Shown here: piece by piece, positions 2,416 through 53,181 of the stretch
Position numbering within the stretch: the first letter of the stretch is position 1
Layout of the letters: every line of letters begins with the position of its first letter
DNA from: a virus
DNA: 56,192 nt
Direction: 5' to 3' (one strand)
Virus record (IMG/VR): IMGVR_UViG_3300008113_000177
Location: 1 to 56,192 of that record
Notes under the pieces: model-generated
Told to the model about the DNA's origin: nothing
What the model saw: the letters and a program-made list of their open reading frames with translations, nothing else
Databases searched by the model: none
Program-made: the position numbers and the translations under genes

Positions 2416-2444
2416 TTGGTGGATAGATTGTAAGGTTGTAGTAT
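2416..2444 (+). promoter_or_regulatory. Leaderless promoter of the SNase-like gene
   Basis: TTGGTG at 2416-2421 and TAGTAT at 2439-2444 are 17 bases apart, and exactly six bases (GTCCCT) separate the -10 box from the ATG at 2451. No ribosome-binding site is present, so transcription would begin at or next to the start codon. Confidence 0.6.
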
Positions 2445-2450
2445 GTCCCT

Positions 2451-2813
2451 ATGAGTATAAAGACTAGCCTCTATCAGTACGCTTTACGTCACATACGTGT
2501 TGTTGACGGCGATACGTTAGAAGGTGATATAGACCTTGGATTCAACGTAGAACTGAAGGGTGTGAAGGTACGCCTGGAAGGTATTGACTGCCCTGAAAAG
2601 AGTACACCTGAAGGTATTGCATCACGTGACTTTACGTCTCAATGGATATGTGCAGCTGAGAGTGAGTGTAAGACGGTAGTCATCAACGTAAAGAACCATA
2701 AGCGTGACAAGTACGGTCGTATCCTAGGAGTAGTTACGGTAGACGGTCAGAGCTTGACTGATGTGCTGCTTATCAACGAGTTAGGTAAGCCATATAGCGG
2801 GGGTAAAAGGTAG
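2451..2813 (+). CDS. Staphylococcal-nuclease-like (thermonuclease) protein
   Basis: This 120-residue protein matches the SNase fold in order: VVDGDT near residue 17-22 (calcium-binding aspartates), VRLEGIDCPE near 40-49 (catalytic arginine and the conserved turn), and DKYGRILG near 85-92. Family members cut DNA and RNA using calcium. No signal peptide is present, so it would act in the host cytoplasm, perhaps degrading host DNA or processing phage DNA. It is slightly short at the C-terminus compared with the staphylococcal enzyme. The start is leaderless, six bases after a -10 box, and an intrinsic terminator follows. Confidence 0.85.
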   Translation: MSIKTSLYQYALRHIRVVDGDTLEGDIDLGFNVELKGVKVRLEGIDCPEKSTPEGIASRDFTSQWICAAESECKTVVINVKNHKRDKYGRILGVVTVDGQSLTDVLLINELGKPYSGGKR

Positions 2814-2880
2814 AAGGTATACTGTTATTGCCACCGCAAGGTGAGCATCAACAAGAACAACAACTCACAACCAAACAGGA

Positions 2881-2927
2881 AAGTCCTCTAAGCGTAACTT
2901 GAAATTGCGTAACTAGAGGGCTTTTTT
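2881..2927 (+). terminator. Intrinsic terminator after the nuclease gene
   Basis: AAGTCCTCTA at 2881-2890 pairs with TAGAGGGCTT at the other side of a loop and is followed by a run of six T. Inside the loop GCGTAACT is repeated directly. It should stop rightward transcription from the nuclease promoter. Confidence 0.8.
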
Positions 2928-2929
2928 GG

Positions 2930-3278
2930 TGCTAGTCGATACAGGCATACCAGCTAATCCAGCACAGTTGATTATTTAATCCCAACAAATTGATATGCCT
3001 GTATCTTCGAACAGTTGAAAGGTTTTCTGGAATCTTTCTTTTTTAGTTCACTATCTCTCGATAGCAAACATAGTATACATCCATACTGGTACAGTTACCA
3101 TTAAATGATACAATTAACAGTAAGAACTACTCGCTACCCACGCAACGGTTGCCTATAAGCCTGGCGGCAGTTTGCTCTTAGTATTAGGAGTAAGACGGTT
3201 GGAGTCCGTCAGTAGTTCGAGTGTGTGCTGGTATTAATAACCTTGGATTGGTAACTGATGCCAGCACATACAATATTG
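2930..3278. other. Structured non-coding region between nuclease and methyltransferase
   Basis: No gene is visible in about 350 bases. A perfect 12-base inverted repeat, GATACAGGCATA at 2938-2949 and TATGCCTGTATC at 2994-3005, encloses 44 bases. A TGATACAAT sequence near 3105-3115 looks like an extended -10 box. Further on are GACGG/CCGTC around 3194-3210 and TGTGCTGG/CCAGCACA enclosing 29 bases near 3224-3269. The density of stems suggests a small RNA or a terminator cluster for the leftward methyltransferase operon. Confidence 0.45.
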
Positions 3279-4574
3279 TCAGACTTGCTTATTTATCTCG
3301 TGCTGAATACGCTTTTCAGCTATCTTGAGATACTCTTCGTCAAGCTCACAGCCTATAAAGTTTACACCTTCAAGCATTGCTGCCTTACCAGTAGTACCAC
3401 TACCCATAAAGGGGTCTAATACTGTACCCCCACGTCTAGTTACCATTCGTACTAGATAACGCATGAGGTCGGTAGGCTTTACTGTTGGATGGTGGTTTGC
3501 AGCTACGCTGTCGTTGCGCTGGTAGGCTGTCTCGTTACGTACTTCTCTACCATCATGTGAATATTGCTTAGGTTCTAGGTCTTCAAGTCCTTCGTTACGG
3601 TCACGCTTATTTGATTTAGAGCAGTAGAAGAAACGTGCAGCTGAACCACTTGATGTATCGCTGGCTAGTCGTTTTGGCGATGTAGGCTTACCGTTATTGT
3701 TAAAGTGCCTAGCACCATCAGTTTGTACCCAGGCTCCACCCTTAGTGTCAGGGAATAGGTCTAAGACCTCTTGTGAGCCATCATGTATGAAGTTAGCTCC
3801 CCATCTGCCTAATGGGTTAGCAGGATTAGCACCTGATAGGTCACTGCTGTTCTTCCACGAGTTGTCCATTACGCCACCACGCTCACGTATCTTATCTACG
3901 CCAGCAGATAACTTATTGAAGTCATCTTCATCCATAGGAACACGTGTAGCATCGATGTTGATAGCACCTACACCCCACTTGAGTACGTTATTAGTTACTG
4001 TACCCTCTAGTGGCTTACGTGCCATAGTGATTGGCTCAGAGGCGGGTTTAAGAGCTGTCCCCCAGCCTTGCCAATTCTTTGCTTCATCAGTAAGTGGTTC
4101 GTATGGAGTGACCTCATTACTGGTCAACTTGTTCTCTTTATCGACGTCTGAAGCTTGATACGTAGACGCTGTAGGGATTGCTCTACCCCGATTAGGGTGA
4201 CCAAATGACTTGTCTATGGCACAACTTACGTTATGAGATTTAGGGAATCCGCTACTGTAGACCCAAGCAATCATGTCACGTATTTCAAACCCAGCATCTT
4301 CGATGTTGACAGCCATTCGATGCTGCGTACGAGTACCTGCAAACGATAGGAGGTAACCACCAGGCTTGAGTACACGTAGGCATTCACGCCATATCTCAAC
4401 GGAAGGTACGTCATAATCCCACTTCTTGGACATGAAGGATATACCGTACGGTGGGTCAGTAACAATAGAGTCTATGCTGTTATCTGGGTACGTCTTTAGG
4501 GTGTCTAAGCAGTTGCCAAGATGTAATTGAAATCGTGGAATATCACCAGTTTGTAATTGTGTAGGGTCTACCAT
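3279..4574 (-). CDS. Site-specific DNA methyltransferase (N6-adenine or N4-cytosine type, beta class)
   Basis: The 431-residue protein has the catalytic motif TDPPYGISF at about residues 39-47 and the S-adenosylmethionine motif LDPFMGSGTTGKA near 391-403, in the circularly permuted order of beta-class enzymes of the N4/N6 methylase family. A long target-recognition region lies between, about residues 110-340. DPPY is more usual for adenine than cytosine methylation. The likely role is to mark phage DNA against host restriction. No cognate endonuclease is next to it. It overlaps the Tad2-like gene upstream and is the last gene of a three-gene leftward operon. Confidence 0.9.
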   Translation of the reverse strand: MVDPTQLQTGDIPRFQLHLGNCLDTLKTYPDNSIDSIVTDPPYGISFMSKKWDYDVPSVEIWRECLRVLKPGGYLLSFAGTRTQHRMAVNIEDAGFEIRDMIAWVYSSGFPKSHNVSCAIDKSFGHPNRGRAIPTASTYQASDVDKENKLTSNEVTPYEPLTDEAKNWQGWGTALKPASEPITMARKPLEGTVTNNVLKWGVGAINIDATRVPMDEDDFNKLSAGVDKIRERGGVMDNSWKNSSDLSGANPANPLGRWGANFIHDGSQEVLDLFPDTKGGAWVQTDGARHFNNNGKPTSPKRLASDTSSGSAARFFYCSKSNKRDRNEGLEDLEPKQYSHDGREVRNETAYQRNDSVAANHHPTVKPTDLMRYLVRMVTRRGGTVLDPFMGSGTTGKAAMLEGVNFIGCELDEEYLKIAEKRIQHEINKQV

Positions 4575-4783
4575 ACTGGTTCTTCTACTACAATCCAGTC
4601 ATCAGCAAAGAAACAATCTTGTGGAAGAGTAAGGGACTCCATCATAGTCTCTGCTTCTGGTGTCTTCATAACAAAGCAGTTGAAGCCTTCTGACCACCTA
4701 AGTAGCAGTTGGTCACTACCCCAGTGAACACGACTTACGACCTTGCCATACACAATATCTTTATGGATTTCCCCAAATGTCAT
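4568..4783 (-). CDS. Tad2-like (DUF2829) protein, putative anti-Thoeris factor
   Basis: The 71-residue protein starts MTFGEIHKDIVYGKVVSRVHW and ends with FADDWIVVEEP. This follows the DUF2829 layout: an MxFGEA-like start with a GK-V-R-W segment, a central FVMKT strand, and a D-x-x-A-x-DW close. Tad2, the studied member, binds and sequesters the cyclic ADP-ribose signal that activates Thoeris immunity. Whether this copy binds a signal is inference. It sits three bases after DUF5872 and overlaps the methyltransferase, so all three are probably one transcript of counter-defence genes. A second DUF2829-like protein is at 43506. Confidence 0.75.
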   Translation of the reverse strand: MTFGEIHKDIVYGKVVSRVHWGSDQLLLRWSEGFNCFVMKTPEAETMMESLTLPQDCFFADDWIVVEEPVW

Positions 4784-4786
4784 ATG

Positions 4787-5173
4787 TCAACGAAACTTAG
4801 CAACTTTCTTGGCAATGGACTTAGGTTGTGCAACAAACTGCTTGCCAGTTTTGTTGCCCTCTGCCTTGGCTTTATTGGTTGCTGCCTTTTCACCAGGGCT
4901 AAGTGTTGACCAAGCTTTGTCTGGTAGATACCGCTTCTTACCCTCTGAAGGTGTGCTATCACTAGTGCGCCACTTCTGGTCTGTCCACTTTGCTAGACTG
5001 TTATCAGCCTTCTTTGGACCTTCGTAACCACCACCTGAAGCCTTGTATTTCTGTACTGCCAGCTGCGCTTTACGGGCTGACCATTCACCTGAATCACCAC
5101 CCTTAGATGATGACTTTACGTCACTTACTACCTTACTCCAAAGTGTCGGGTTAGTCTTTTTAGCGGTACTCAT
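4787..5173 (-). CDS. DUF5872-like basic protein (128 aa)
   Basis: The sequence shows the hallmarks of a short lysine-rich family found in phages and large DNA viruses: NPTLWSKV near residue 8, SARKAQLAVQKYK near 32-44, SLAKWTDQKW near 59-68, then KRYLP and LSPGEKAATNKAK. It is strongly basic and soluble. No biochemical function is known to me for the family; nucleic-acid binding is suggested only by charge. The start is leaderless, six bases after TAAAAT. It is the promoter-proximal gene of the operon with the Tad2-like and methyltransferase genes. Confidence 0.75.
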   Translation of the reverse strand: MSTAKKTNPTLWSKVVSDVKSSSKGGDSGEWSARKAQLAVQKYKASGGGYEGPKKADNSLAKWTDQKWRTSDSTPSEGKKRYLPDKAWSTLSPGEKAATNKAKAEGNKTGKQFVAQPKSIAKKVAKFR

Positions 5174-5179
5174 ATAGCG

Positions 5180-5185
5180 ATTTTA
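5180..5185 (-). promoter_or_regulatory. -10 box TAAAAT of the DUF5872 operon, leaderless
   Basis: Leftward TAAAAT is followed by exactly six bases (CGCTAT) and the ATG at 5173. No ribosome-binding site lies between or close upstream. Confidence 0.55.
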
Positions 5186-5251
5186 TCCTGTTATTTTGCC
5201 AATATTTAGGTGTTTACGCACGTGCGAAATATAGTAAATCCCGACAGTTGT

Positions 5252-5369
5252 GGGGGAAAGTATTTTTAGGGGTATTGGAAAGAATCTTTCCTTCCCCGGT
5301 TATTGAGGGGGAAAGAATTTAGTACCCCTATTAACAAGAGAGATTAATATACATATTACATATGTATAT
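5252..5369. other. Candidate replication origin: iteron block plus AT-rich palindrome
   Basis: GGGGGAAAGTATTTT starts at 5252 and a related GGGGGAAAGAATTT at 5307, followed by AGTACCCC. The same elements occur inside the initiator gene near 47050-47137 on the other strand. Next to the block, ATATACATA at 5347-5355 and TATGTATAT at 5361-5369 form a perfect hairpin in an AT-only-like stretch that could melt easily. Iterons beside an AT-rich element are the usual make-up of an initiator-dependent origin. A regulatory role instead is possible. Confidence 0.55.
5278..5290. promoter_or_regulatory. Palindrome GAAAGA-A-TCTTTC, candidate operator
   Basis: A perfect 6+1+6 palindrome differing only at the centre base from the one at 2209-2221. 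It lies within the origin-like block, between divergent leaderless genes. Confidence 0.45.
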
Positions 5370-5396
5370 ATATTAATACGCGCGTAGAGCTTATGT

Positions 5397-5402
5397 TATG
5401 AT
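5397..5402 (+). promoter_or_regulatory. -10 box TATGAT of the HNH gene, leaderless
   Basis: TATGAT is followed by six bases (TTGGCT) and the ATG at 5409, with no ribosome-binding site. Confidence 0.55.
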
Positions 5403-5408
5403 TTGGCT

Positions 5409-5666
5409 ATGCCATACGTAAACAAAGAGAGACCCTACAAAAAAGAATACGCACAGCAAGTCGCTAGAGGTGAACACCCTACCCGTATGGAACGCCAGAA
5501 GGCTCGTAGAGCTATGGACGCTAACGGGGTAGACCGTAAGGGTAAAGACATCGACCACAAGAAACCTCTTTCAAAGGGTGGTACTAATGCACCTTCCAAC
5601 CTACGGTTGGTGAAACCTGCGACCAATCGCAGTTTCAAAAGAAACCCTGATAGAAGCGTCAAGTAA
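5409..5666 (+). CDS. HNH endonuclease (85 aa)
   Basis: The core DIDHKKPLSKGGTNAPSNL near residues 47-65 contains the HNH metal-binding histidines and asparagine, with a final TNRS. The upstream part is basic and helical (ERQKARRAMDANGV). Such small proteins nick or cut DNA; phage versions may be homing nucleases or assist the terminase. This one is far from terL. The ATG at 5409 is chosen over a TTG two codons earlier because the -10 box ends six bases before it. It is probably a single-gene transcript. Confidence 0.88.
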   Translation: MPYVNKERPYKKEYAQQVARGEHPTRMERQKARRAMDANGVDRKGKDIDHKKPLSKGGTNAPSNLRLVKPATNRSFKRNPDRSVK

Positions 5667-5675
5667 GTATTGTGA

Positions 5676-5705
5676 TATACTGTCACTGATGACAGGTTCC
5701 TGTCA
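5676..5705 (+). promoter_or_regulatory. Extended -10 promoter with a start-site palindrome
   Basis: TGATATACT gives an extended -10 box (TATACT at 5676-5681) without a clear -35. Just downstream TGACAGG-TT-CCTGTCA at 5690-5705 is a perfect palindrome over the expected start of transcription. It could be a repressor site or a 5' hairpin. The ribosome-binding site AGAGGAG follows for the gene at 5719. Confidence 0.5.
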
Positions 5706-5718
5706 GAGGAGTACAGTG

Positions 5719-5994
5719 ATGAAAGTTATTTCCTTTTCAAGGGATTCGGATGCAGAGGTTGAAATCAACCCTAAGGTTCCTGGAACCTATGATGTCTCAA
5801 TCAAAACGGTAGATAGCACTGAGATGGTATCGGCTGTATCAGCTGGTGAAGCGTGGATGTATATCCGCAACTACGATGCAAAAGTTCCTATGAAGATTAT
5901 GCTTGACTTTGCTGAGTTGGCTATTCGCTCGATGCAAGTTACAAACCAACCGTACACAGTTGTTTTGAATCCAGAGGTTACAGATGCTGAATAG
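5719..5994 (+). CDS. Small acidic protein upstream of ssb, unknown (91 aa)
   Basis: The start is the ATG after AGAGGAGTACAGTG. The protein begins MKVISFSRDSDAEVEI, alternates short strands and one helix, and has no cysteine or membrane segment. It overlaps ssb by eleven bases and shares its promoter, so a role in DNA replication or recombination is possible by context only. The family is not recognised. Confidence 0.75.
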   Translation: MKVISFSRDSDAEVEINPKVPGTYDVSIKTVDSTEMVSAVSAGEAWMYIRNYDAKVPMKIMLDFAELAIRSMQVTNQPYTVVLNPEVTDAE

Positions 5995-6379
5995 AGTCGT
6001 TCTAATTGGTCGATTGGTTGCTGACCCTGAACACCGCATGACTCAGTCTGGTAAGGGTGTAGCAAACCTACGTGTAGCAGTAGACCGAAAAGGGCGGGAG
6101 AAGGAAACTGATTTCTTTGATGTTACCGCTTGGGGGCAGTCTGCTGATTTTGCTGCTACTTACCTTTCTAAGGGTAGACTTGTTGCTATTGAAGGGCGTC
6201 TACAAGTTCGCCAATATACTGATAAAGACAACACACAGCGTAAAGTATGGGAAGTTGTTTCTGATTCGATTCAGCCTTTGGATAGCGGAAAAACTAAAGC
6301 TGAGGGTGGACATCAACAGCCAGCAGCTCATTCGTCTTCAGCAGATTCAAATGAAGAAATCGAAGACCCATTCGCCTGA
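5984..6379 (+). CDS. ssb: Single-stranded DNA-binding protein
   Basis: The first hundred residues match the bacterial-type OB fold: MLNRVVLIGRLVADPE, then WGQSADFAATYLSKGRLVAIEGRL and ending near VVSDSI. A flexible Gly/Ser/His-rich linker leads to an acidic tail ending EIEDPFA. The usual partner-binding tip ends in PF; here an alanine follows. It binds ssDNA as a tetramer in this family and recruits replication partners. Translation is coupled to the preceding gene, and AGAGG precedes the ATG. The 3' end overlaps a convergent gene by 52 bases. Confidence 0.95.
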   Translation: MLNRVVLIGRLVADPEHRMTQSGKGVANLRVAVDRKGREKETDFFDVTAWGQSADFAATYLSKGRLVAIEGRLQVRQYTDKDNTQRKVWEVVSDSIQPLDSGKTKAEGGHQQPAAHSSSADSNEEIEDPFA

Positions 6380-6819
6380 TAACCTTTAGGATACCAAGCC
6401 GAAAGGCTTATGAAATGCTTCAGAGGAATGAAAACGGACAGAGCTTCGTCAAACTCATTCCTCTTTACTCTTGGTCCAGCAAGTCTGGAATCTAAGTCAT
6501 CTAGACCCTGTATCTCCGTAATGTAATCACCATCTGTAAACTCAGTGAACAGAATGGAATAACCATTATAGGAACGCAGGTAGTCCCACTTAGACTTAGT
6601 AATCATCACATCTGGGTATGTCCCAAACTTATGTGTTCGTTGCTTGTATTCACATATGCCTGATAGATATGGTGTCCACCAAGTCATGTCGTGTTGACAG
6701 GTTGTAGGCATCAAGGCGATATCGCACTCTCCATAAAGGCAGAACAGCCGTCCTTGCAACTTTAGGGCAGCGTATGACTGAGAGTTCCTATTGGCTGGTG
6801 TTTCAAATAACTTACGCAT
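6328..6819 (-). CDS. Putative PD-(D/E)XK-like nuclease fold protein (163 aa)
   Basis: The start is taken at the ATG at 6819, within a few bases of a TATAAAAT promoter; longer N-terminal options would run across thyX. The protein contains GICEYKQRTHKFGTYPDVMI near residues 53-72, where the E-x-K and following conserved region resemble the core of small phage PD-(D/E)XK enzymes, and a later TEFTDG strand. The nuclease assignment is tentative. It lies between ssb and thyX on the opposite strand and overlaps the end of ssb by 52 bases. Confidence 0.6.
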   Translation of the reverse strand: MRKLFETPANRNSQSYAALKLQGRLFCLYGECDIALMPTTCQHDMTWWTPYLSGICEYKQRTHKFGTYPDVMITKSKWDYLRSYNGYSILFTEFTDGDYITEIQGLDDLDSRLAGPRVKRNEFDEALSVFIPLKHFISLSAWYPKGYQANGSSISSFESAEDE

Positions 6820-6840
6820 AATAGATTTTATAGGGTGAAC

Positions 6841-7491
6841 ATGAACAAAGTAAGTACTGTTTGGAAAACCCCCAACGCACTCGAACATATATGTTTCTGT
6901 GCAAGAGTCTCCTCCAGTAATCAGAATGATAGGTCGGATGCTGCAAATAAACGACTTATCAAATACTGCATGAGGAATAAACACTGGTCAATCTTTGAGA
7001 TGGCTAACTGGACAATAGAGATTCATACGTCTAGAATGGTGAGCCGACAATTTATTCGACACTCATCCATCAAGGTTCAGGAGTTTAGTCAAAGATATGC
7101 AGAAGTCAAAGAAGAAATCACGCCTCCAAATATGCGTGGCAAACATCCGTACAACCGGCAATCATCTGTTGAGATGCCTCTGGATATGCAACTCTATGCT
7201 GACAGCATTGTTTCTAATGCAATTCAGCAGATTGAAAGTGCATATGACAAACTTGTAGAAGCTGGTGTAGCACTAGAAACAGCACGTGCGATATTGCCTG
7301 AGTGTGCGCCAACTACCCTATATGCCAATGGACGTTTACGTGACTGGATTCACTATATGGACGTAAGGCGTGGTAACGGTACGCAGAGTGAACATGAGGA
7401 CTTGGCAAATAAGATATATGAAGAGTTCCAGGTTGAATTCCCGATGCTTGCAGAAATAGTAGAAGAACTCAAAGGAGATGAGGTTGTTTAA
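6841..7491 (+). CDS. thyX: Flavin-dependent thymidylate synthase ThyX
   Basis: ThyX makes dTMP from dUMP with FAD, NADPH and methylenetetrahydrofolate. The signature motif is present as RQFIRHSSIKVQEFSQRY near residues 60-77. The usual RHR-x7-S reads RHS-x7-S here, so one arginine is replaced. The N-terminal CARVSSSNQ and the C-terminal ARAILPE and NGRLRDWIHY segments are typical. At 216 residues it has normal length. GTG at 6835 is an alternative start; no ribosome-binding site is seen and TATAGG lies six bases before the ATG. It is coupled to the dUTPase gene. Confidence 0.93.
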   Translation: MNKVSTVWKTPNALEHICFCARVSSSNQNDRSDAANKRLIKYCMRNKHWSIFEMANWTIEIHTSRMVSRQFIRHSSIKVQEFSQRYAEVKEEITPPNMRGKHPYNRQSSVEMPLDMQLYADSIVSNAIQQIESAYDKLVEAGVALETARAILPECAPTTLYANGRLRDWIHYMDVRRGNGTQSEHEDLANKIYEEFQVEFPMLAEIVEELKGDEVV

Positions 7492-7906
7492 TTTACTTGA
7501 TAAAGATGCTGTAGTACCAACAAGGGCTACGGCTGGTTCAGCTGGTTTTGACCTCTATGCATTGAATGATGCATTTGTAGAGGATGGTGATGTAGCGGTT
7601 GTATCAACGGGTGTGTCTGTAGACATCCCAGAGGGTCACTACGCCCTTGTTTGCTCAAGGTCTGGGCTTGCTGCCAAGTATGGTGTATTCGTCCTCAATG
7701 CGCCCGGAATTATTGATGCAGATTACAGGCAGGAAATCAAAGTCATCTTAGCCAAATTTCCTAACAGTATGGATAATGGTCGTTTCCAAATTAACAAGGG
7801 TGACCGTATCGCTCAGTTGTTATTTGGTCAGTGTGATGTAAGCATTCTTAGTCGTGTAACAGCAGATGCTGAACGCACTGGCGGATTTGGTTCTACAGGA
7901 ATTTAA
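7478..7906 (+). CDS. dut: Deoxyuridine triphosphatase (dUTPase)
   Basis: All five trimeric dUTPase motifs are visible: AGSAGFDLYA near 19-28, SRSGLAAKYG near 60-69, NAPGIIDADYRQEI near 74-87, KGDRIAQLLF near 107-116 and RTGGFGSTG near the end. The enzyme turns dUTP into dUMP, the substrate of ThyX encoded just upstream, and keeps uracil out of DNA. It overlaps thyX by 14 bases. AGGAG touches the ATG at 7478, so the TTG at 7484 may be the real start. Confidence 0.95.
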   Translation: MRLFNLLDKDAVVPTRATAGSAGFDLYALNDAFVEDGDVAVVSTGVSVDIPEGHYALVCSRSGLAAKYGVFVLNAPGIIDADYRQEIKVILAKFPNSMDNGRFQINKGDRIAQLLFGQCDVSILSRVTADAERTGGFGSTGI

Positions 7907-7907
7907 A

Positions 7908-8138
7908 ATGGATAACATATTCTTTGTATGCGTCGGGTTTGCTGCATATGCACTTGTAAACTATGGGCTAAATATGCTTGGCGCATACAGAGAATATAAA
8001 GAGCTTACTGAATGGCTTGATGAAAGGGGTGTGGAGATATCGTCCCTAGATAAACGGGAGTTATCAAAGTACCTTTCAATATTCAGGTTATCTGAAATAG
8101 ATGGTGTTGAAGTAGTCTCGATTGATGAGCCTGAATAA
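7908..8138 (+). CDS. Small membrane-anchored protein downstream of dut (76 aa)
   Basis: The ATG at 7908 has AGGA upstream. Residues about 4-22 (IFFVCVGFAAYALVNYGLN) form one hydrophobic helix, followed by a charged cytoplasmic-type domain with WLDERGVEISSLDKREL. It follows the dUTPase by two bases, so it is in the thyX-dut transcript. The family is not recognised and the function is unknown. Confidence 0.72.
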   Translation: MDNIFFVCVGFAAYALVNYGLNMLGAYREYKELTEWLDERGVEISSLDKRELSKYLSIFRLSEIDGVEVVSIDEPE

Positions 8139-8142
8139 GGAG

Positions 8143-8208
8143 GAGCCAGCCGCTGGGAGTACGACTGGCTCTGGATAGGTTGCCTGAAAGGTAAGGTAGG
8201 TAGGTATC
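8143..8208 (+). other. Hairpin and orphan TAGG leader without a gene
   Basis: GAGCCAG at 8143-8149 pairs with CTGGCTC at 8165-8171. Further on, GAAAGGTAAGGTAGGTAGG at 8186-8204 copies the leader used by the right-end genes, but the sequence reads TATC where TATG would be expected and a stop follows at once. It looks like the remains of a lost small gene, placed between convergent genes. Confidence 0.5.
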
Positions 8209-8226
8209 AGACAGTAGGATTATACC

Positions 8227-8460
8227 TTAGTCTTCTTTGTTGGCAAGTTGCTTTGAAACATAATCTGCATATTCAAGGGCGAGTTTCATTTGAGACCTAG
8301 CGTTAGGTTCGTAGCCTTGCTTCTTGTAGATGTTCTGAAGGTGATAGTGAACAGTTCGTTTAGAGATTAGTAGCTTTTCGCCTATCTCATTTACTGTCAT
8401 CCTGTCTATTGCCATAAGATTCAAAATAGTGTGTTCTTTAGGCGTTAGGTTGTCATACAT
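8227..8460 (-). CDS. LuxR/GerE-type helix-turn-helix protein (77 aa)
   Basis: Nearly the whole protein is one GerE-like DNA-binding domain: LTPKEHTILNLMA near residues 5-17, MTVNEIGEKLLISKRTVHYHLQNIYKKQG near 21-49. There is no receiver or sensor domain. Free-standing GerE domains usually act as small transcription factors; the target is unknown. It overlaps the gene upstream by eight bases, and AGGAGAGCAAGG precedes the ATG. The pair forms a leftward two-gene operon ending opposite the dut operon. Confidence 0.85.
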   Translation of the reverse strand: MYDNLTPKEHTILNLMAIDRMTVNEIGEKLLISKRTVHYHLQNIYKKQGYEPNARSQMKLALEYADYVSKQLANKED

Positions 8461-8812
8461 CCCTTGCTCTCCTCTTTAGTGTGTTGAACTGTGTTTCAGC
8501 CTTTGCCTCATCTTCATAGAAGTAAATCACGCTTTGGTTTTTACCATTTGAGTAATCTTCTCGATGGAATACAAAGAATGAGTAGGTTGGATGCTTTACG
8601 ATTGTTCCCAGATTGCAAATAAGTGTATGACCAGGACAACGTCCATTAATGCATCCATCTTCACAATATTGCTTTCCCATAAACTTCTCTTTCCATTTAG
8701 GAGATACACCCATAGGTGTTCCAAATGTACGTTCGTCGAGTAAGTTTGCTAGATGGACAATTGCATTGATGTACAAAGGGTCATCAGTTGAAGTGATTAA
8801 TTTTTGTGCCAT
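8453..8812 (-). CDS. Protein with a four-cysteine cluster (119 aa), unknown
   Basis: The central YCEDGCINGRCPGHTLIC near residues 49-66 places four cysteines and a histidine close together, which could bind zinc. The rest is a mixed fold with TYSFFVFHREDY and a helical end. It is not recognised. Start at 8812 is leaderless, six bases after TAAACT. Its partner downstream is a LuxR-type regulator, so it might sense a ligand or metal for that regulator; this is speculation. Confidence 0.72.
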   Translation of the reverse strand: MAQKLITSTDDPLYINAIVHLANLLDERTFGTPMGVSPKWKEKFMGKQYCEDGCINGRCPGHTLICNLGTIVKHPTYSFFVFHREDYSNGKNQSVIYFYEDEAKAETQFNTLKRRARDV

Positions 8813-8818
8813 ATGACA

Positions 8819-8824
8819 AGTTTA
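8819..8824 (-). promoter_or_regulatory. -10 box TAAACT, leaderless
   Basis: Leftward TAAACT is followed by exactly six bases (TGTCAT) and the ATG at 8812, with no ribosome-binding site. Confidence 0.45.
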
Positions 8825-8852
8825 TCAGGTATGCATTAGATAGCATATACGT

Positions 8853-8858
8853 TACAAT
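8853..8858 (+). promoter_or_regulatory. -10 box TACAAT, leaderless
   Basis: TACAAT is followed by exactly six bases (CCGATT) and the ATG at 8865. It is divergent from the 8812 gene, and the two promoters share about 50 bases. Confidence 0.55.
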
Positions 8859-8864
8859 CCGATT

Positions 8865-9113
8865 ATGGGCGTCGTAAAGAAATATCAGAACCCCAAGGGT
8901 GGATTGAACGCAGCTGGTAGAGCGCATTTCAAGAAGACTACTGGTGCTAACTTGAAGCCCCCGGCTCCTAAGCCTAAAACGCCAAAAGATGCTGCTCGCC
9001 GTAAGTCATTCTGTTCAAGAATGAAAGGTATGCGTGAGAAGAACACATCGCCTGAAGTAGCAAAAGACCCTAACAGTAGAATAAATAAGTCCTTAAGAGC
9101 TTGGAATTGTTAG
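8865..9113 (+). CDS. DUF6321-like basic protein (82 aa)
   Basis: The string GGLNAAGRAHFKKTTGANLKPP near residues 12-33 in shortened view (GGLNAAGRAHF, then KTTGANLKPP), followed by RRKSFCSRMKGM and the end SLRAWNC, fits a family I recall as DUF6321, found in many phages. It is rich in Lys and Arg. The function is unknown; abundant basic proteins next to packaging genes may bind packaged DNA, which is inference. It begins a run of five rightward genes for small basic proteins. Confidence 0.75.
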   Translation: MGVVKKYQNPKGGLNAAGRAHFKKTTGANLKPPAPKPKTPKDAARRKSFCSRMKGMREKNTSPEVAKDPNSRINKSLRAWNC

Positions 9114-9123
9114 TGAGATAATC

Positions 9124-9297
9124 ATGAAAACTAAAGCGCATCGTGGCTTCAAAGTAGTACAAGCAGAGATTGCTAAGAAGCAAGGTATCTCTATGAATAG
9201 TGCTGGTGCTATCCTAGCAACTTCTGCACGTAAAGCTAGCCCTGCCGCTAAGGCTAAAAACCCTAGACTAAAGAAAGTATTAGGCAAGGCTAAGTAA
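9124..9297 (+). CDS. 57-aa lysine/alanine-rich protein
   Basis: The frame from ATG at 9124 to TAA at 9297 encodes a very basic protein: KTKAHRGFKVVQAEIAKKQG then a helical SMNSAGAILATSARKAS and a Lys-rich tail. It lies 10 bases after the DUF6321-like gene and touches the next start (TAA then ATG). Composition fits a nucleic-acid-binding peptide. The ribosome site is weak, so translation may be coupled. No family is recognised. Confidence 0.65.
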   Translation: MKTKAHRGFKVVQAEIAKKQGISMNSAGAILATSARKASPAAKAKNPRLKKVLGKAK

Positions 9298-9570
9298 ATG
9301 CTGAACGAGATGAACAAGCATATGAACCATCTTTCTATGGGTACTTTGATGACTATAGAAACGAAGGAACATAACCTCAAGAAAGCACCTACGAAAACGG
9401 AGCTTCTGAAAATGGAGCAACGTGAGCATAAGTTAGGCAATCGCCCGACTATGCGAGAAGCAATGGAAGCTGAGTACGCAGAGCATTCTAACGCTGAAGA
9501 TAAGTTGGTAATCAAACCGAGTCGAGCGCAGGAAGCCAAGGCTACTGCCATTTATAAAAAAAGGAAGTAA
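9298..9570 (+). CDS. Charged helical protein (90 aa), unknown
   Basis: The start follows the previous stop without a gap. The sequence is almost all helix-forming with repeats of an MxxxEHxL pattern: TKEHNLKKAPTKTELLKMEQ and then REHKLGNRPTMREAMEAEYAEH. This suggests two similar helical segments. There is no cysteine or membrane segment. Function unknown; context is the small basic gene cluster before the packaging genes. Confidence 0.7.
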   Translation: MLNEMNKHMNHLSMGTLMTIETKEHNLKKAPTKTELLKMEQREHKLGNRPTMREAMEAEYAEHSNAEDKLVIKPSRAQEAKATAIYKKRK

Positions 9571-9575
9571 CTAAA

Positions 9576-9743
9576 ATGCCAATGGGAATGCCCTATCCAA
9601 AGGGTGAAATGTCTATGTCGAAGATGATGGGTGTTGAGTCCAAGAAGGATGCAATGCCAGCGAAAAAGGCTAAAAGCATGAAGCCTGCATCTAAGAACGG
9701 TAAGAAGATGACCGCAAAGATGATGATGAAAGGTAAATGTTGA
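9576..9743 (+). CDS. Methionine/lysine-rich 55-aa protein
   Basis: AAGGAAGTAACTAAA gives a good ribosome-binding site for ATG at 9576; TGA ends at 9743. The protein is extreme in composition, with about a quarter of residues methionine and a quarter lysine (for example SMSKMMGV and TAKMMMKGK). Methionine-rich segments can bind copper or be flexible, but no function is claimed. The stop overlaps the next start as TGATG. Confidence 0.72.
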   Translation: MPMGMPYPKGEMSMSKMMGVESKKDAMPAKKAKSMKPASKNGKKMTAKMMMKGKC

Positions 9744-10822
9744 TGGCGGCTGCATCCGCTAATATGAGTGCCGCTAAACGCTTTCAGGCAAGTATGAGGA
9801 GTAATAACCCTGGTATCGTTCCTGATAAGCAAGGCACTGCACGAACGCTAGAAGCTGCTCGTCGTTTTCAACAAACTATGCGTCTACGTGACCCCGGTAT
9901 TGTTGGTAATGCTAGTAGTGAATTGTCTAAAGCGTTAGTTCGGTCTGCACCTTCTGAGATTGCCACACGTGCTAGTGGTGAACTAATGAAGCGTGAGGCT
10001 GGTGATATTGCTCGTCGTGCAAGTGGTGAAATGGTTAAGCGTCCAGCAGGTGAACTTGCAACTCGTGCCGCTGGCGAGATGGTTAAACGTCCTGCTGGAG
10101 AACTCGCTACACGTGCTGGTGGTGAGATGGTCAAGCGTGGTGCAGGTGATGTTGCTAGACGTGCTGGTGGTGAACTTGCTAAGGTTGCTGCCTCTGAAGG
10201 TAGCAAGGCTGGTATGCGTCAAGTTGCCGGTCAGGTTGCTAGTCAAGCTGCTGGTAATCTTGGGCGAACCGCTGCACAAGGACTTGCTATGGGTGCGGCT
10301 AAAGCTGTTTTACCAATAGCAGTTGTTGCGGCTACACAAAAAGGTTCTGGTGAATTTCCTGAACTAGAGAAGTTGCGTCGCGAAGAATCTGAAAACCGTC
10401 GTGTCAAAATGCAACAAGGTATGAAAACAGGTATGGGTAACACTGCACCTGGTGCATACCGTCACGAAACGCATATGACAGGTCTCAAAGGTGAATATAA
10501 ACCTATTGAAGACTTGACTGGATATGCCGTTAGCCTCATTGAAAAAGGTCGTAACTTTGGTGAAGCTCGTAAACTTATGCAGGGAACTGAAAAGTTTAGG
10601 GGTATGTCAGATGACATGAAGCGTATGGCTCTTCAGTACTACGATGATTGGCAGAAGGGTCAGTTAGCATCTACTAATCCTGCTGGTCGTGCTAAGTTGA
10701 ATGCTTATCTTGCATCTGAAAAACAGGCAAGGGAACGTGCTGCAAATGCAAATAAACCTTTGACGCCTACTGACCCAACTGGAATGCGTAAGCCTATTCG
10801 TCGTGCGCTTGGGATGGAATAG
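9743..10822 (+). CDS. Ala/Arg-rich repeat protein, possible virion or DNA-binding protein (359 aa)
   Basis: The protein has three parts. Residues about 10-55 contain two copies of a segment of the type AA(K/R)RFQ..M, each ending DPGIV or NPGIV. Residues about 75-150 contain four to five units of a 16-residue repeat, GEMVKRPAGELATRAA in one copy. A hydrophobic Ala-rich stretch near 170-200 and a charged C-terminal domain follow. The repeat region is basic and helical. Its place before the terminase genes suggests a structural or DNA-condensing role. The ATG at 9743 is preferred to 9737 because AAAGG is then spaced better. The 3' end overlaps the convergent DUF3310 gene by 29 bases. Confidence 0.75.
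   Translation: MAAASANMSAAKRFQASMRSNNPGIVPDKQGTARTLEAARRFQQTMRLRDPGIVGNASSELSKALVRSAPSEIATRASGELMKREAGDIARRASGEMVKRPAGELATRAAGEMVKRPAGELATRAGGEMVKRGAGDVARRAGGELAKVAASEGSKAGMRQVAGQVASQAAGNLGRTAAQGLAMGAAKAVLPIAVVAATQKGSGEFPELEKLRREESENRRVKMQQGMKTGMGNTAPGAYRHETHMTGLKGEYKPIEDLTGYAVSLIEKGRNFGEARKLMQGTEKFRGMSDDMKRMALQYYDDWQKGQLASTNPAGRAKLNAYLASEKQARERAANANKPLTPTDPTGMRKPIRRALGME
9973..10182. repeat. 48-base imperfect tandem repeat inside the Ala/Arg-rich gene
   Basis: Four to five units of about 48 bases encode the 16-residue repeat with centre GE-M/L-V/M-KR and A-G-E/D-x-A-x-R-A. Copies differ mostly at third positions, suggesting selection on protein sequence rather than a very recent expansion. 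Confidence 0.75.
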
Positions 10823-11054
10823 CAGATACTGCTATAACAATATTGTCAGCAATAGATGTTGACTTAGTAATCTCAAAAACTAAATACCAGAGTGCCTTCT
10901 GCAAGTCATCTTGTTCGGAGGCACTTTTCTTTTTGCCAGCACGTCCTATGTACTTGATAATATTACCTAAACAGAAGTCTAAGTCCCAGTCAACTATTAC
11001 ATCTAGTGGCTGAATATTACTCTTGCGGTAGTGTTCTATCTGTTCATACGACAT
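10794..11054 (-). CDS. DUF3310 family protein (86 aa)
   Basis: The core reads HYRKSNIQPLDVIVDW near residues 8-23, then LGNIIKYIGRAGKK and DLQKALWYLVFEI, which is the DUF3310 pattern found in many phage genomes. Members have sometimes been labelled nucleotide kinases, but no Walker motif is present here and the role is unknown. The start ATG at 11054 is leaderless, exactly six bases after a perfect TATAAT. It faces the 359-aa gene and overlaps its end by 29 bases. Confidence 0.85.
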   Translation of the reverse strand: MSYEQIEHYRKSNIQPLDVIVDWDLDFCLGNIIKYIGRAGKKKSASEQDDLQKALWYLVFEITKSTSIADNIVIAVSAIPSQAHDE

Positions 11055-11060
11055 AATGGG

Positions 11061-11066
11061 ATTATA
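11061..11066 (-). promoter_or_regulatory. -10 box TATAAT of the DUF3310 gene, leaderless
   Basis: A perfect leftward TATAAT, six bases (CCCATT), then the ATG at 11054. TTGTAG lies 18 bases upstream as a -35. This is the clearest member of the leaderless set. Confidence 0.65.
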
Positions 11067-11090
11067 CACTGGTAAAGGTGCTAACTACAA

Positions 11091-11957
11091 TTGACAGATA
11101 AGCGTAAGATGTTCCTTCAGAAGGGTGGGTTGGAAATCACTGACCCTATTACTGAAACGGATGGAGTCCGCTACAAGAACCGTAACGGCACATTAATTAG
11201 GTGTTGTGATGCAGAGGTTGGGCAAGGTTCTAAAACGTGGAAGTGTCGAAACATTGCAGTCAAGGGGAGTGCATTTTGTATAAAGCACGGCGGAGTACCG
11301 AAACCAGCCAATACCAATTCGTTATTATTCAACACAGGTCTTCAAAGTAGCAACCAAGGTAGATTCCGTAATGTTGGTAAGAAGATGCTTGACCGCATCG
11401 ACAAGCTTAGGGAAGACCCTGAACTTTGGTCATTGCGAGATGACACTGCATACATCACTGCTCTTCTTGATATTAGAGCAGAAGCAGCTGCTGAAGGTGT
11501 TAGTCTTGACCAATACAAAAAGATTCAAGAGATGTATAAGTCTTGTGCTGACCATAAATATCAAGAGGACTTTTGGGATTTATTTGATGAGTTAGGTAAG
11601 GCTATTAGTCATACGTTAAGTGAGTTTGCTGCATCAAAGGATGTACTTGAACTCATTGAACGACGTACTGATATTGTGGAAACAGAACAACGGTTGATGC
11701 ATCAAAAGGCATATACTCTTGAAGTAGACCAAGCATTCAGTCTTGTCATGCAGATTGTGAACGTTATTAATCGCACTGTAAGTAACTCTGATGAGAGGCA
11801 AGGAATCAAGGCTGGCATTGGCAAACTGTTGACTGTTTATAAGCAGTCATATGAAGAAGAAATTATAGATGCCGAGGTAATAGATGGCGCAGCAGAAGAG
11901 TCAGGTGAATACCAAGATAACTCCCAAGGCACTGAGGAAGTTCATCCGACCGAATAA
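11091..11957 (+). CDS. Zinc-finger protein upstream of terL, putative terminase small subunit
   Basis: The 288-residue protein has a Cys/His motif, CRNIAVKGSAFCIKHGG near residues 52-68 with two earlier cysteines at about 38-39, the short finger with HGG that often occurs in phage proteins encoded near terminases. A long helical region follows and the tail is acidic. Position directly before terL with a 74-base overlap supports the small subunit, which recognises the packaging site. The TTG start at 11091 is chosen for the AAAGGTG ten bases before; ATG at 11109 is possible. Confidence 0.65.
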   Translation: MTDKRKMFLQKGGLEITDPITETDGVRYKNRNGTLIRCCDAEVGQGSKTWKCRNIAVKGSAFCIKHGGVPKPANTNSLLFNTGLQSSNQGRFRNVGKKMLDRIDKLREDPELWSLRDDTAYITALLDIRAEAAAEGVSLDQYKKIQEMYKSCADHKYQEDFWDLFDELGKAISHTLSEFAASKDVLELIERRTDIVETEQRLMHQKAYTLEVDQAFSLVMQIVNVINRTVSNSDERQGIKAGIGKLLTVYKQSYEEEIIDAEVIDGAAEESGEYQDNSQGTEEVHPTE

Positions 11958-48569: not shown

Positions 48570-48805
48570 AGCTTGAATCCTACAAACATATTGAACTTCT
48601 GAGCCAAAGTCTTAGGTGTCCTATCCTTTGTTGCATAAACCTCTTTTGTCAGTAGGTTAATCGTCTGGTCTAACTTCTCAAGGACGTTTGATACAGGGAA
48701 CTGAGGTTGCCCTGTCTTTAGTTCTTCATTCACCTGGATGCAATGAGCCTTAGCCCTAAGTTGCACTAGTCCTTCAAGCACATTCTCAAGCTCACTTCGT
48801 CTCAT
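48566..48805 (-). CDS. Small helical protein in the recombination operon (79 aa)
   Basis: ATG at 48805 is used because GGAG lies eight bases upstream; it overlaps the end of the Gp157-like gene by 14 bases. The protein begins MRRSELENVLEGLVQLRAKA and is helical, with NVLEKLDQTINLLTKEVYA. No cysteine cluster. Family not recognised. Tight overlaps on both sides suggest coupled translation. Confidence 0.7.
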   Translation of the reverse strand: MRRSELENVLEGLVQLRAKAHCIQVNEELKTGQPQFPVSNVLEKLDQTINLLTKEVYATKDRTPKTLAQKFNMFVGFKL

Positions 48806-49382
48806 CTTTAGTCTCCATAAGCGTTTTGATGGTGATGCTTTCTCCACCTTCCACTACAGCAAACCCGAATGCTTCAGCACTTGATGGGTCACTCAACAAC
48901 TTAGCCTTCACTGAATCTGGAACCATAGATATAAGTACAGATTCCTGTACCTTGATAGCCTGTGGACATTCCAACTTTGCGAATGCTAGTGCAACATTAG
49001 ATGTCATTACCTTTATCGTTGGTGTTGTCGTACGTTGACCGATAGTCCCGAATGGGCATCGATACGTCTTGCTACGAAGGTTGCCTTCCTTATCTCTAGG
49101 GAGGAGTGTGTTTGCTACCTTTGCAGCTTGACCTTCATACATAGCCCTAAGGTAAGTGACCTTAGACTTATGACGCTTGACCATCTTATTGATGTTCTCT
49201 AAGACAGACTTGTACTTCATCTCTTCTGCTGCAGCACGTGTCTCAGCGTCAAGAAGGATTCTCATATACTTGAGAAGGTCTTCTTCACCTTCAAGGATTG
49301 AGGGGAGGTCTCTCCCCGTTGGTCCCGCATACTCGCCTGTCTCATCATCAAACAGGTCACCGTCAATCTCAATAATAGCCAT
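48792..49382 (-). CDS. Gp157-like protein (196 aa)
   Basis: The long helical segment AETRAAAEEMKYKSVLENINKMVKRH followed by YLRAMYEGQAAKVA, then a beta-rich domain with TYRCPFGTIGQRTTTP, is the plan of Siphovirus Gp157-like proteins. These occur near recombination genes and have been linked to resistance to phage infection in Streptococcus. Here it lies just downstream of the ERF gene. The TAGG leader GAAAGGTAGGTAGGTATG is complete. Confidence 0.8.
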   Translation of the reverse strand: MAIIEIDGDLFDDETGEYAGPTGRDLPSILEGEEDLLKYMRILLDAETRAAAEEMKYKSVLENINKMVKRHKSKVTYLRAMYEGQAAKVANTLLPRDKEGNLRSKTYRCPFGTIGQRTTTPTIKVMTSNVALAFAKLECPQAIKVQESVLISMVPDSVKAKLLSDPSSAEAFGFAVVEGGESITIKTLMETKDETK

Positions 49383-49396
49383 ACCTACCTACCTTT

Positions 49397-50137
49397 CTAT
49401 TCGTTCGCTTCCAAACATCCAGTGATGAATACATCTGCCTCTGCTTTGTCTTTGCATTCAGACAAACAATCTGCTACGTGTGATAGTGAATCCTTTGTGA
49501 TAGGAACCTCTGAACCGCCAGCTGCGACAGCGTTGTGGATTCCCTTACGGTCAGCCTTAGATGTCTCTTTACCCCAGAGCCTATCAATCTCTGCGTTGAA
49601 CCTATCCAATGGTGCAGGTACTGTTGGCGCAGGTGTCTTAGGTGCTTGCTTTTGTGGAGTCTGCGGCTGTCGCAAAGGTTGTTGTGGAGCCTGAGATTGA
49701 TTCTGGTATCCACTAGCATTGTTGCCGTCATCATCCGTATCTGATGCTTCACCGATAGCCAAGAGTGCAGACAAGCTATATCTGCGCCCATAAGTAATAG
49801 CAGAGCCTACTCGATGTGCATCTACTGGCTGTACCTTGCCATCCCTGTTAATGATAGGGTTGACTGGTACAGATACTTCATTAGCAATCCACTCACCACT
49901 AGCATGAATCAACGTGGAGCGAACAGTAATCTCGCTATCAGTATGGCTTTGCACTGACTGTGACAAGAAGATGTTGTACTGACTAAGTACTGGACGAACA
50001 GACAGTAGAATGCTATCAAGCGTGATGTATTTACTACGGAAAATAGGGTTGTTGCCATCCTTTGCAACACCATTAATGCCAGCCTGAACCTTCACAAGGT
50101 CAGGTGCAATACTAGACAACGAATCTGAATGAAACAT
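49397..50137 (-). CDS. erf: ERF-family single-strand annealing protein
   Basis: Residues about 10-140 contain the ERF pattern: LVKVQAGINGVAKDGNNPIF, then AHRVGSAITYGRRYSLSALLAIGEASDTDDDGN (in parts VGSAITYGRRY and SLSALL). ERF proteins form rings that anneal complementary strands in phage recombination. A Gln/Pro-rich linker (145-175) connects to a C-terminal helical domain. AAGGGAG precedes the ATG and a sigma70-type promoter lies 23-50 bases upstream. Confidence 0.9.
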   Translation of the reverse strand: MFHSDSLSSIAPDLVKVQAGINGVAKDGNNPIFRSKYITLDSILLSVRPVLSQYNIFLSQSVQSHTDSEITVRSTLIHASGEWIANEVSVPVNPIINRDGKVQPVDAHRVGSAITYGRRYSLSALLAIGEASDTDDDGNNASGYQNQSQAPQQPLRQPQTPQKQAPKTPAPTVPAPLDRFNAEIDRLWGKETSKADRKGIHNAVAAGGSEVPITKDSLSHVADCLSECKDKAEADVFITGCLEANE

Positions 50138-50159
50138 ATGTTTTCTCCCTTACGTAGAA

Positions 50160-50188
50160 AGTGTACTCCAAGAATACTGTATTGTCAA
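50160..50188 (-). promoter_or_regulatory. Sigma70-type promoter of the ERF operon
   Basis: Leftward TTGACA at 50183-50188 and TACACT at 50160-50165 with a 17-base spacer, followed by AAGGGAG and the ATG at 50137. The -35 overlaps the last codon of the upstream gene. Confidence 0.7.
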
Positions 50189-50835
50189 TAATCCATCTTA
50201 GACAAAAGAAGTTCTTCTTCATCATCATCTGGGTAGAGGTTTGAGATTTCCTCAAGGTTGAATGGTGATTCAGTATCCTGGAGTATGAGGAAGTCAGCTT
50301 GTGAATAAATCTTTGTGACTGGGATGTATTCAAGTATCATCGCTGGGTTGAGCATAGCCTCTTCAGGGTTATCGCTCGTATCCTTTATGACGCCTAATGC
50401 GTGTTCTATATCAGCTGATACTACTTGATGTGGCTTGCCGTTGATTAGTCTATGGACGCATCCAAGCTTGCCATCCTGTACCTTTGCCACCCGGTAAACA
50501 AACCCGCCAAAGTCTGGTGTAAGTCTGCCATCTGGTGCATCTGTAGGGCAGGTACATAGTGTTCCATTACATCCTAGTGCCTGTACCTTACGTCCGTTGT
50601 ATTCAAAGAAACGGTAACGATTCATCAAGGTACGAAGTTGTATTCTTGTGTTGTACTCGATGCCGTTCTGCGTTACTTCATCATCAAAGATAACTGCATA
50701 TCGCCATCCATCCTTCTCTGACTCTTGTATGAGATTGATACCCTCTATGGTCTCCATATTGACCCATACGTAGTCTCCACCTGTCTTCTGGAACACGTAG
50801 TCCCAACAATCAATACTTGGTTTCAAATAGCCCAT
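50185..50835 (-). CDS. Protein of unknown function (216 aa)
   Basis: ATG at 50835 follows GTGGAGGCAAACT and overlaps the nuclease gene upstream by 26 bases. It begins MGYLKPSIDCWDYVFQKTGG and has TLCTCPTDAPDG near 94-105, with three to four cysteines, and an acidic C-terminus rich in Asp and Glu (LYPDDDEEELL). The fold looks mixed alpha-beta. No family recognised. Position in the recombination operon suggests a DNA-related role at most. Confidence 0.65.
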   Translation of the reverse strand: MGYLKPSIDCWDYVFQKTGGDYVWVNMETIEGINLIQESEKDGWRYAVIFDDEVTQNGIEYNTRIQLRTLMNRYRFFEYNGRKVQALGCNGTLCTCPTDAPDGRLTPDFGGFVYRVAKVQDGKLGCVHRLINGKPHQVVSADIEHALGVIKDTSDNPEEAMLNPAMILEYIPVTKIYSQADFLILQDTESPFNLEEISNLYPDDDEEELLLSKMDY

Positions 50836-51232
50836 AGTTTGCCTCCACAAATCTTGTAATCTTATCTACGGTTGTCCAGTTGTTAAGTTCTGCCTCAACC
50901 CTTGATATAACCAATAGAACCTCTTCGGTAGAACGACAGATTGTCGTATACCCAGCATCTGCTATCTTTTGCTGTATCTCAGATGCCTTACCTTTCGCAG
51001 CCTTCAGTTCGATAGCTACTGCTTTGCTGCCCCATAGATGGTGTGACGAATGTATGTACAAGTCTGGTAGCCCTGGTGTGTTACCCTGATAGCCTGTCGC
51101 ATAACTGTACGCACCACATTTAGTGCATCTAACCTTAGTTCTAGTCTTCCCTGTTTCAAAGACTTTGTAACCTAGCACCATCAAAGTATCTATCACTTGT
51201 TTTTGTAGTGCTGCTTCAGGCTTAATCCTCAT
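50810..51232 (-). CDS. VRR-NUC nuclease (140 aa)
   Basis: The core reads NTPGLPDLYIHSSHHLWGSKAVAIELKAAKGKAS near residues 50-83: the aspartate of PD, then E-L-K, as in the PD-(D/E)XK superfamily VRR-NUC branch, with QQKIADAGYTTICRS after it. An insertion CTKCG near 36-40 adds a CxxC. Such small phage nucleases cut branched or single-ended DNA. It overlaps the gene upstream by eleven bases and is part of the recombination operon with ERF. Confidence 0.88.
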   Translation of the reverse strand: MRIKPEAALQKQVIDTLMVLGYKVFETGKTRTKVRCTKCGAYSYATGYQGNTPGLPDLYIHSSHHLWGSKAVAIELKAAKGKASEIQQKIADAGYTTICRSTEEVLLVISRVEAELNNWTTVDKITRFVEANYGLFETKY

Positions 51233-51782
51233 GCGTAACTCTCCATACGTATTGTGCTACGCTTGCAGTAATGGGAGCTTTGAGCATATCTATCTTCCTG
51301 AGTGCCATCTTAAATGCTGTAGGTGTTGGCGCACGTTTACATAATTCAAAGAGACTCTCGTTGTTTTGGATAATCTCTAACCCATTCTTCATAGGTTGTG
51401 TTGGATTCACGATAGGCGTAGTAAACTCCTCAAGGGTTGCATAGTTACGCTTTTGATTCACCTTATCTATGAACTTAACAACCTTCCCACCTGTGATGGA
51501 TACGTCATAAATGGTTGTCCATCCAAAGTCTCCATTTAGAAATGCGATGATATCCTTCTTAGTCCAGTGATGACTTACCTGTCTACGGAACTGACTAACT
51601 AGCACGTGTACCCTGCCTGTCATCCGCTGCTTCATCATGTTGTATTGGATACCTCTCGCTTCCTGTATGGCATCCTCTTTACTTTCAAAGTATCTGGTAA
51701 TGCTGCCCCAACGTAGCTGAGTTACGTGTGCATAGTTACCTCTACCGAAAATGGGCTTGCGTCCCGTTTTAGTTTCTGCCAT
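51222..51782 (-). CDS. Basic protein of unknown function (186 aa)
   Basis: The start follows GAAAGGAATAGATAGATAGATAG, where tetranucleotide repeats separate the ribosome-binding site from the ATG. The protein begins MAETKTGRKPIFGRGNYA and contains WTKKDIIAFLNGDFGWTT near 73-90 and a helical C-terminus FKMALRKIDMLKAPITAS. It is basic and may bind nucleic acid, but no family is recognised. It is the first gene of the nuclease operon. Confidence 0.7.
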   Translation of the reverse strand: MAETKTGRKPIFGRGNYAHVTQLRWGSITRYFESKEDAIQEARGIQYNMMKQRMTGRVHVLVSQFRRQVSHHWTKKDIIAFLNGDFGWTTIYDVSITGGKVVKFIDKVNQKRNYATLEEFTTPIVNPTQPMKNGLEIIQNNESLFELCKRAPTPTAFKMALRKIDMLKAPITASVAQYVWRVTHED

Positions 51783-51833
51783 CTATCTATCTATCTATTC
51801 CTTTCGTGCGAACTGGTTTCAGAACTGGTTTCA
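51781..51833. repeat. Compound repeat: ATCT microsatellite and 12-base direct repeat
   Basis: Four units of ATCT at 51781-51797 overlap the start codon of the 186-aa gene. Then GAACTGGTTTCA occurs at 51810-51821 and 51822-51833. The same combination lies at 55906-55958. Confidence 0.7.
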
Positions 51834-51849
51834 AAAAGAGAAAACGGAC

Positions 51850-51972
51850 TCACCGCTTGCCTGAAAAGACAAGGGTGAATCCGATTACTAGTAAACCAAT
51901 CGCTAAAGGTACATATCCCATAAACAGGGTAGACCATCCTAGGAAACAAACAAAGCTTCCAGTCTGCCTCAT
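51850..51972 (-). CDS. 40-aa membrane protein
   Basis: ATG at 51972 overlaps the upstream stop as ATGA; TGA ends at 51850. The sequence MRQTGSFVCFLGWSTLFMGY followed by VPLAIGLLVIGFTLVF is nearly all hydrophobic and would span the membrane once or twice, ending SGKR. It lies before the compound repeat. Too short to assign. Similar tiny membrane proteins fill gaps at 828, 13623 and 43957. Confidence 0.62.
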   Translation of the reverse strand: MRQTGSFVCFLGWSTLFMGYVPLAIGLLVIGFTLVFSGKR

Positions 51973-52205: not shown

Positions 52206-52227
52206 ACCTACCTACCTTAGGGAATGA

Positions 52228-52255
52228 ATACCTGTACCAGAAATGATACAGGTAT
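52228..52255 (-). other. Leader hairpin upstream of the 78-aa gene
   Basis: ATACCTGTA at 52228-52236 pairs perfectly with TACAGGTAT at 52247-52255 around ten bases. It lies between the stop at 52267 and the TAGG leader, as in the other leader hairpins. Confidence 0.7.
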
Positions 52256-52266
52256 ATGTAAACGTA

Positions 52267-52827: not shown

Positions 52828-52837
52828 AGCTACCTAC

Positions 52838-53167: not shown

Positions 53168-53181
53168 ACCTACCTACCTTT

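Follow-up and report, generated by a model that had tools for sequence, protein, structure and literature searches.

The window analyzed here is the whole of IMG/VR virus record IMGVR_UViG_3300008113_000177 (56,192 bases, ~44% G+C), which encodes a P22-like portal, a major capsid protein, a large terminase, DnaB, ERF, SSB, ThyX and a dUTPase. In its left 11 kb, hexamers of the form TANNNT lie six bases in front of several start codons, which raises the question of whether these genes are transcribed from the start codon itself and translated without a leader. TANNNT ~12 bp upstream of the start codon is the signature of leaderless genes, and such signals are frequent in Actinobacteria and Deinococcus-Thermus and present in other phyla too (PMC3160421); in Deinococcus, a -10 motif of this kind has been found by experiment to drive leaderless expression (PMC12340547). 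No match for 20 kb of the window was found among isolated phages by megablast, and a search of the window with Rfam gave no match. Comparisons were made with 80 related viral contigs gathered by a TerL search.

A sequence-only reading of this DNA had listed six TANNNT-N6-ATG sites, and every hexamer, spacer and ATG was found where that reading had placed it (Table 1). Its statement that the six genes lack a Shine-Dalgarno (SD) sequence was likewise borne out: none has a good site, the predicted SD pairing ranging from -4.5 to +0.7 kcal/mol, whereas the other genes of the window have a median of -7.2 kcal/mol (p = 6e-4). The coexistence of two translation modes that it had proposed is also supported. 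The first 35 nt of the predicted leaderless transcripts are also less structured than those at other starts (mean MFE -1.5 vs -3.6, p = 0.009). The count of ‘at least six’ can be raised to at least seven, since a minus-strand gene starting at 6819 (TAAAAT-N5-ATG) had not been listed. All were said to be first genes, and they are, mostly in divergent pairs; every predicted leaderless start except 2451 is divergently arranged (5173/5409, 6819/6841, 8812/8865, and 11054 against the gene upstream of the terminase). In the pair 6819/6841, in which 21 nt separate the start codons and the partner gene is thyX, only 6819 is a predicted leaderless start; 52 nt lie between 8812 and 8865.

Table 1. Promoter elements and genes of the window discussed in the text.
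Feature	Position	Strand	Remark
-10 box TAGTAT	2439..2444	+	N6 before ATG 2451
Putative leaderless gene 1, staphylococcal-nuclease-like, 120 aa	2451..2813	+	Pfam SNase E 1.5e-7
-10 box TAAAAT for ATG 5173	5180..5185	-	spacer 6
Putative leaderless gene 2, conserved phage protein, function not known, 128 aa	4787..5173	-	phrog_14910 E 1e-32
-10 box TATGAT for ATG 5409	5397..5402	+	spacer 6
Putative leaderless gene 3, HNH-endonuclease-like, 85 aa	5409..5666	+	Pfam HNH E 6.5e-4, just below cut-off
-10 box TAAAAT for ATG 6819, spacer 5	6825..6830	-	orthologues TAGAAT/TATAAT-N5-ATG
Probable leaderless gene 7, PDDEXK endonuclease-like	6328..6819	-	Pfam PDDEXK_14 E 1.3e-6
-10 box TAAACT for ATG 8812	8819..8824	-	motif in 8/8 distinct orthologues examined
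Putative leaderless gene 4, 119 aa, without family match	8453..8812	-	
-10 box TACAAT for ATG 8865	8853..8858	+	spacer 6
Putative leaderless gene 5, DUF6321 protein, 82 aa	8865..9113	+	Pfam E 7e-25
-10 box TATAAT for ATG 11054	11061..11066	-	spacer 6
Putative leaderless gene 6, DUF3310 protein, 86 aa	10794..11054	-	Pfam E 3e-14
Probable -10 box TACACT, rightward packaging/structural operon	11065..11070	+	
Gene upstream of large terminase, possible small terminase	11091..11957	+	AAAGGTG-N10-TTG

TANNNT is a loose pattern that matches 1.8% of positions, and the hexamers could in principle be meaningless products of an AT-rich composition, the real promoters and ribosome sites lying elsewhere. 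Among 71 gene starts of the window, picked manually rather than by a standard gene caller, TANNNT was enriched at -12 to -7, where it was present at eight (the six listed, 18501 and 20649), compared with 0-3 at every other spacer from 0 to 20. The frequency at internal ATGs, an equal value of which the sequence-only reading had named as evidence against its own claim, was much lower: 3/407 for in-frame ATGs (Fisher p = 1.9e-5 vs gene starts) and 10/704 for off-frame ATGs (p = 7e-5). Shuffling the 40 nt upstream in 5000 runs gave 1.5 hits on average and at most 7, and so never eight. Two of the eight hits are probably fortuitous; 18501 and 20649 lie within operons with possible SD sites and were not retained as leaderless starts. 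Chance is nevertheless contradicted by the internal-ATG and shuffle controls and by the movement of the hexamer with the start codon in relatives (below), and is an extremely unlikely explanation for the set as a whole.

The preference for a spacer of six extends to the family. Before the first ATG of open reading frames in the window and the 80 contigs, TANNNT peaked at 76 occurrences at spacer 6, with ~20-50 at neighbouring spacers, and the fuller TATA[AC]T occurred 23 times at spacer 6, 6-7 times at spacers 5 and 7 and 0-4 times elsewhere; before internal ATGs, TATA[AC]T was found at spacer 6 in no case. This all-offset histogram of 81 contigs is free of bias from motif-guided choice of starts. 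The orthologue comparisons that follow are more favourable to the motif, as the starts of the relatives were picked by motif among nearby in-frame ATG/GTG codons and were not independently annotated. The motif-bearing DUF3310 orthologues have a spacer of 6 in 24/24 distinct cases, while their ATG ranges over ten codons, from up to four earlier to five later than that of the window protein. In several SNase orthologues the start lies one to three codons further downstream, preceded by a re-placed -10 box, and TATACT, TAATAT or TATTAT is kept at spacer 5-7 despite the shifted start. DUF6321 orthologues similarly have TACAAT/TATACT or CATACT/GATACT conserved at spacer 5-7. The spacer of ‘exactly six’ claimed earlier therefore holds for the six listed sites of the window and gives way to 5-7 across the family.

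The spacers of 5 and 7 count against a strictly leaderless reading, as leaders of 1-2 nt or a shift of the transcription start would be possible at such sites. More broadly, the same promoters might produce 5' ends 1-5 nt upstream of the ATG, with SD-independent initiation on a short leader; the spacers of 5 and 7 in the SNase, HNH and DUF6321 orthologues would suit this arrangement, but the peak at spacer 6 and the exact spacing kept by DUF3310 do not, and it is considered unlikely.

The motif also alternates with SD sites. Promoter and start codon are conserved together most strongly for DUF3310 and the gene starting at 8812, whereas the 5173 and HNH genes swap with SD-led forms: some orthologues of the 5173 gene have TATGAT-N5-ATG and most others an SD site, and HNH orthologues have either TANNNT at spacer 5-6 or an SD site. 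The HNH gene of contigs L008 and L019 has TATGAT, then an SD-bearing stretch and then the ATG, an arrangement that can be read as the gain or loss of a leader. The motif was missing from 33/117 orthologues, which usually have an SD site in its stead and in which the predicted SD pairing was stronger (median -7.2 vs -0.7 kcal/mol, p = 1.5e-13), a contrast that is partly trivial because the AT-rich hexamer sits at the SD position; as with other comparisons within the family, the related sequences are not independent and the p-value overstates their independence. Some of the orthologues without the motif sit inside an operon, and the motif is rarer in operon-embedded orthologues (5/20 vs 76/133, p = 0.007).

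In a promoter logo, alignment of the boxes gives G-TATA[A/C]T, with the G directly before the box; as the rows were selected for TANNNT, only the remaining positions are informative. Of a -35 element at 17-bp spacing, the logo shows no more than a weak T at the first position, and no conserved upstream operator was found in it. A small gene for a GerE/LuxR-type regulator (8227-8460) lies immediately downstream of putative leaderless gene 4, the 3' end of which it overlaps. The motif could thus be the promoter element of a coordinated regulon served by a phage-encoded factor such as this one, with leaderlessness as a by-product. The position of the GerE gene and the clustering of the putative leaderless genes in one region are compatible with such a regulon; against it, the core is an ordinary TATA[A/C]T -10 box and no operator is conserved upstream of it. 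This explanation is considered very unlikely.

At the 11 kb junction, the TACACT box of the rightward operon and the -10 box of the DUF3310 gene overlap by 2 nt (TA, 11065-11066). Divergent boxes with this 2-nt overlap were seen at 11061-11070 of the window and in L021, L022 and L026 (ATTATACACT / AGTATACAAT), and in L021 and L022 one 10-bp element would serve two leaderless genes with start codons 22 nt apart. In the window, the gene upstream of the terminase was rejected as leaderless: a stop at 11082 leaves only TTG 11091 or ATG 11109 as its start, no -10 box precedes either codon at spacer 5-7, and the SD-like AAAGGTG lies before TTG 11091, so that initiation is probably SD-led. Its orthologues are predicted to be leaderless in L021, L062, L066, L070 and others, and the mode is therefore not limited to accessory genes, leaving the earlier description of the set as ‘mostly accessory’ only partly right. 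The 28-bp double-promoter pattern CAT-N6-AKTATACAMT-N6-ATG was found in 107 viral stretches compared with 58 and 70 for two controls, and it opened reading frames on both sides in 9/60 testable N6 cases compared with 2/37 for an N9 control, which is only suggestive of enrichment.

Several other features were noted in passing. At 5676-5733, an inverted repeat (GACAGGTTCCTGTC) lies between a TATACT promoter and the SD-led ATG 5719; this promoter and the TGATGACA after it are conserved in the relatives L007 and L022, and the arrangement suggests a short structured leader. Many small minus-strand genes at 48792-55243 have GAAAGGTAGGTAGGTATG upstream, and such repetition of one SD context is unusual. 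A tRNA-like stretch, GAACTACT ... GACGGTTGGAGTCCGTC AGTAGTTC, lies at ~3124-3218 and received no ARAGORN or Rfam call. In L062, L067, L068 and L069, the end of a tRNA-Asn gene adjoins the -10 box of the putative leaderless DUF6321 gene.

The motif, its spacing, the lack of SD sites, their conservation and the swapping with SD sites in relatives are directly visible in the DNA. The best explanation for them is that at least seven genes have sigma-70-type promoters and leaderless transcripts, with SD-led initiation elsewhere. It is favoured by the spacer peak, the co-movement of promoter and start codon, the alternation of motif and SD, the weaker 5' structure and the occurrence of the same arrangement in two of the nearest isolated actinophages (below), and is considered highly probable. 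On this view, the seven or more genes, all in the left 11 kb and either monocistronic or at the head of an operon, would be driven by host sigma-70-type promoters, G-TATA[A/C]T with little or no -35 element. Transcription would start at the A of the start codon or no more than ~2 nt from it (a leader of 0-2 nt), and the 5'-terminal AUG would be bound without SD pairing by 70S ribosomes or by fMet-tRNA-bearing subunits. The remaining genes, including the structural and replication operons, would use ordinary SD-led initiation.

The earlier reading had narrowed the host to Actinobacteria or Deinococcus. The first is supported independently by the portal and capsid matches, and nothing points to the second. 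Of the 12 records matching the portal, 11 are actinophages and the twelfth has no stated host; the matches comprise Arthrobacter, Microbacterium and Cellulosimicrobium phages and one unassigned phage. The sole match of the capsid protein is Streptomyces phage Rowa. Two of the isolates nearest by portal have TANNNT-N6-ATG as in the window: gene 3 of Arthrobacter phage Brad has TTGACA-N17-TACGGT-N6-ATG, in which TTGACA is the consensus, and Microbacterium phage Shocker has two occurrences of TACCCT-N6-ATG. Both phages share only ~22% portal identity with the window and have fewer such genes among the starts checked, and the G+C content of Shocker is much higher. Counting against an actinobacterial host are the Pelagibacter phage that TerL weakly matches, the absence of the actinobacterial marker WhiB from the 22 records searched (WhiB is not known to be universal among actinophages), the search of 84,980 bacterial genomes, in which no relative of TerL was found in a host or prophage, and the tRNA-Asn stretch of the relatives, found almost only in Clostridia and one candidate phylum. 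The last was rejected as host evidence because the arm is probably generic, and the ThyX, DnaB and DUF6321 matches were dropped because they are spread over many hosts. Taken with the motif in Brad and Shocker, the portal and capsid matches suggest that the host is probably actinobacterial.

Leaderless genes are already known, and this phage family appears to be an unusually clear and well-supported new case. As in Actinobacteria and Deinococcus-Thermus (PMC3160421, PMC12340547), TANNNT lies at about -12 to -7 without an SD site, SD-led genes coexist and the initiation mode switches between orthologues; unlike those cases, this is a phage family of ~44% G+C with a fuller TATA[A/C]T box, known here from sequence alone. 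Cluster O mycobacteriophages have the predicted leaderless divergent promoters PL1/PR2 (PMC4351075), which likewise precede divergent first genes of actinophages and place the predicted +1 at the first base of the start codon. Theirs is one pair in isolated phages, whereas several genes with comparative support are involved here, in a distant uncultured family. Phage Adephagia has one predicted leaderless gene (PMC11373665). The cI mRNA of phage lambda, cited as leaderless in PMC9031893, is also a phage transcript beginning with AUG, as predicted here, but belongs to the single repressor gene of a temperate phage rather than to several nuclease and accessory genes.

A more far-reaching proposal is that the leaderless set forms a regulated class, translated selectively when infection alters the initiation machinery of the host, and that a double -10 element of 10 bp, shared by the two genes of a divergent pair (with 22 nt between starts in some relatives), makes a minimal portable expression module; this is regarded as unlikely. 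The comparative evidence suggests repeated use of leaderless translation, kept by selection, in an uncultured phage family, and the leaderless set also points to an actinobacterial host. Gene callers that require an SD site will misplace such starts. As many natural orthologue pairs differ in their predicted initiation mode, the swap between leaderless and SD-led initiation is open to direct study in this family.
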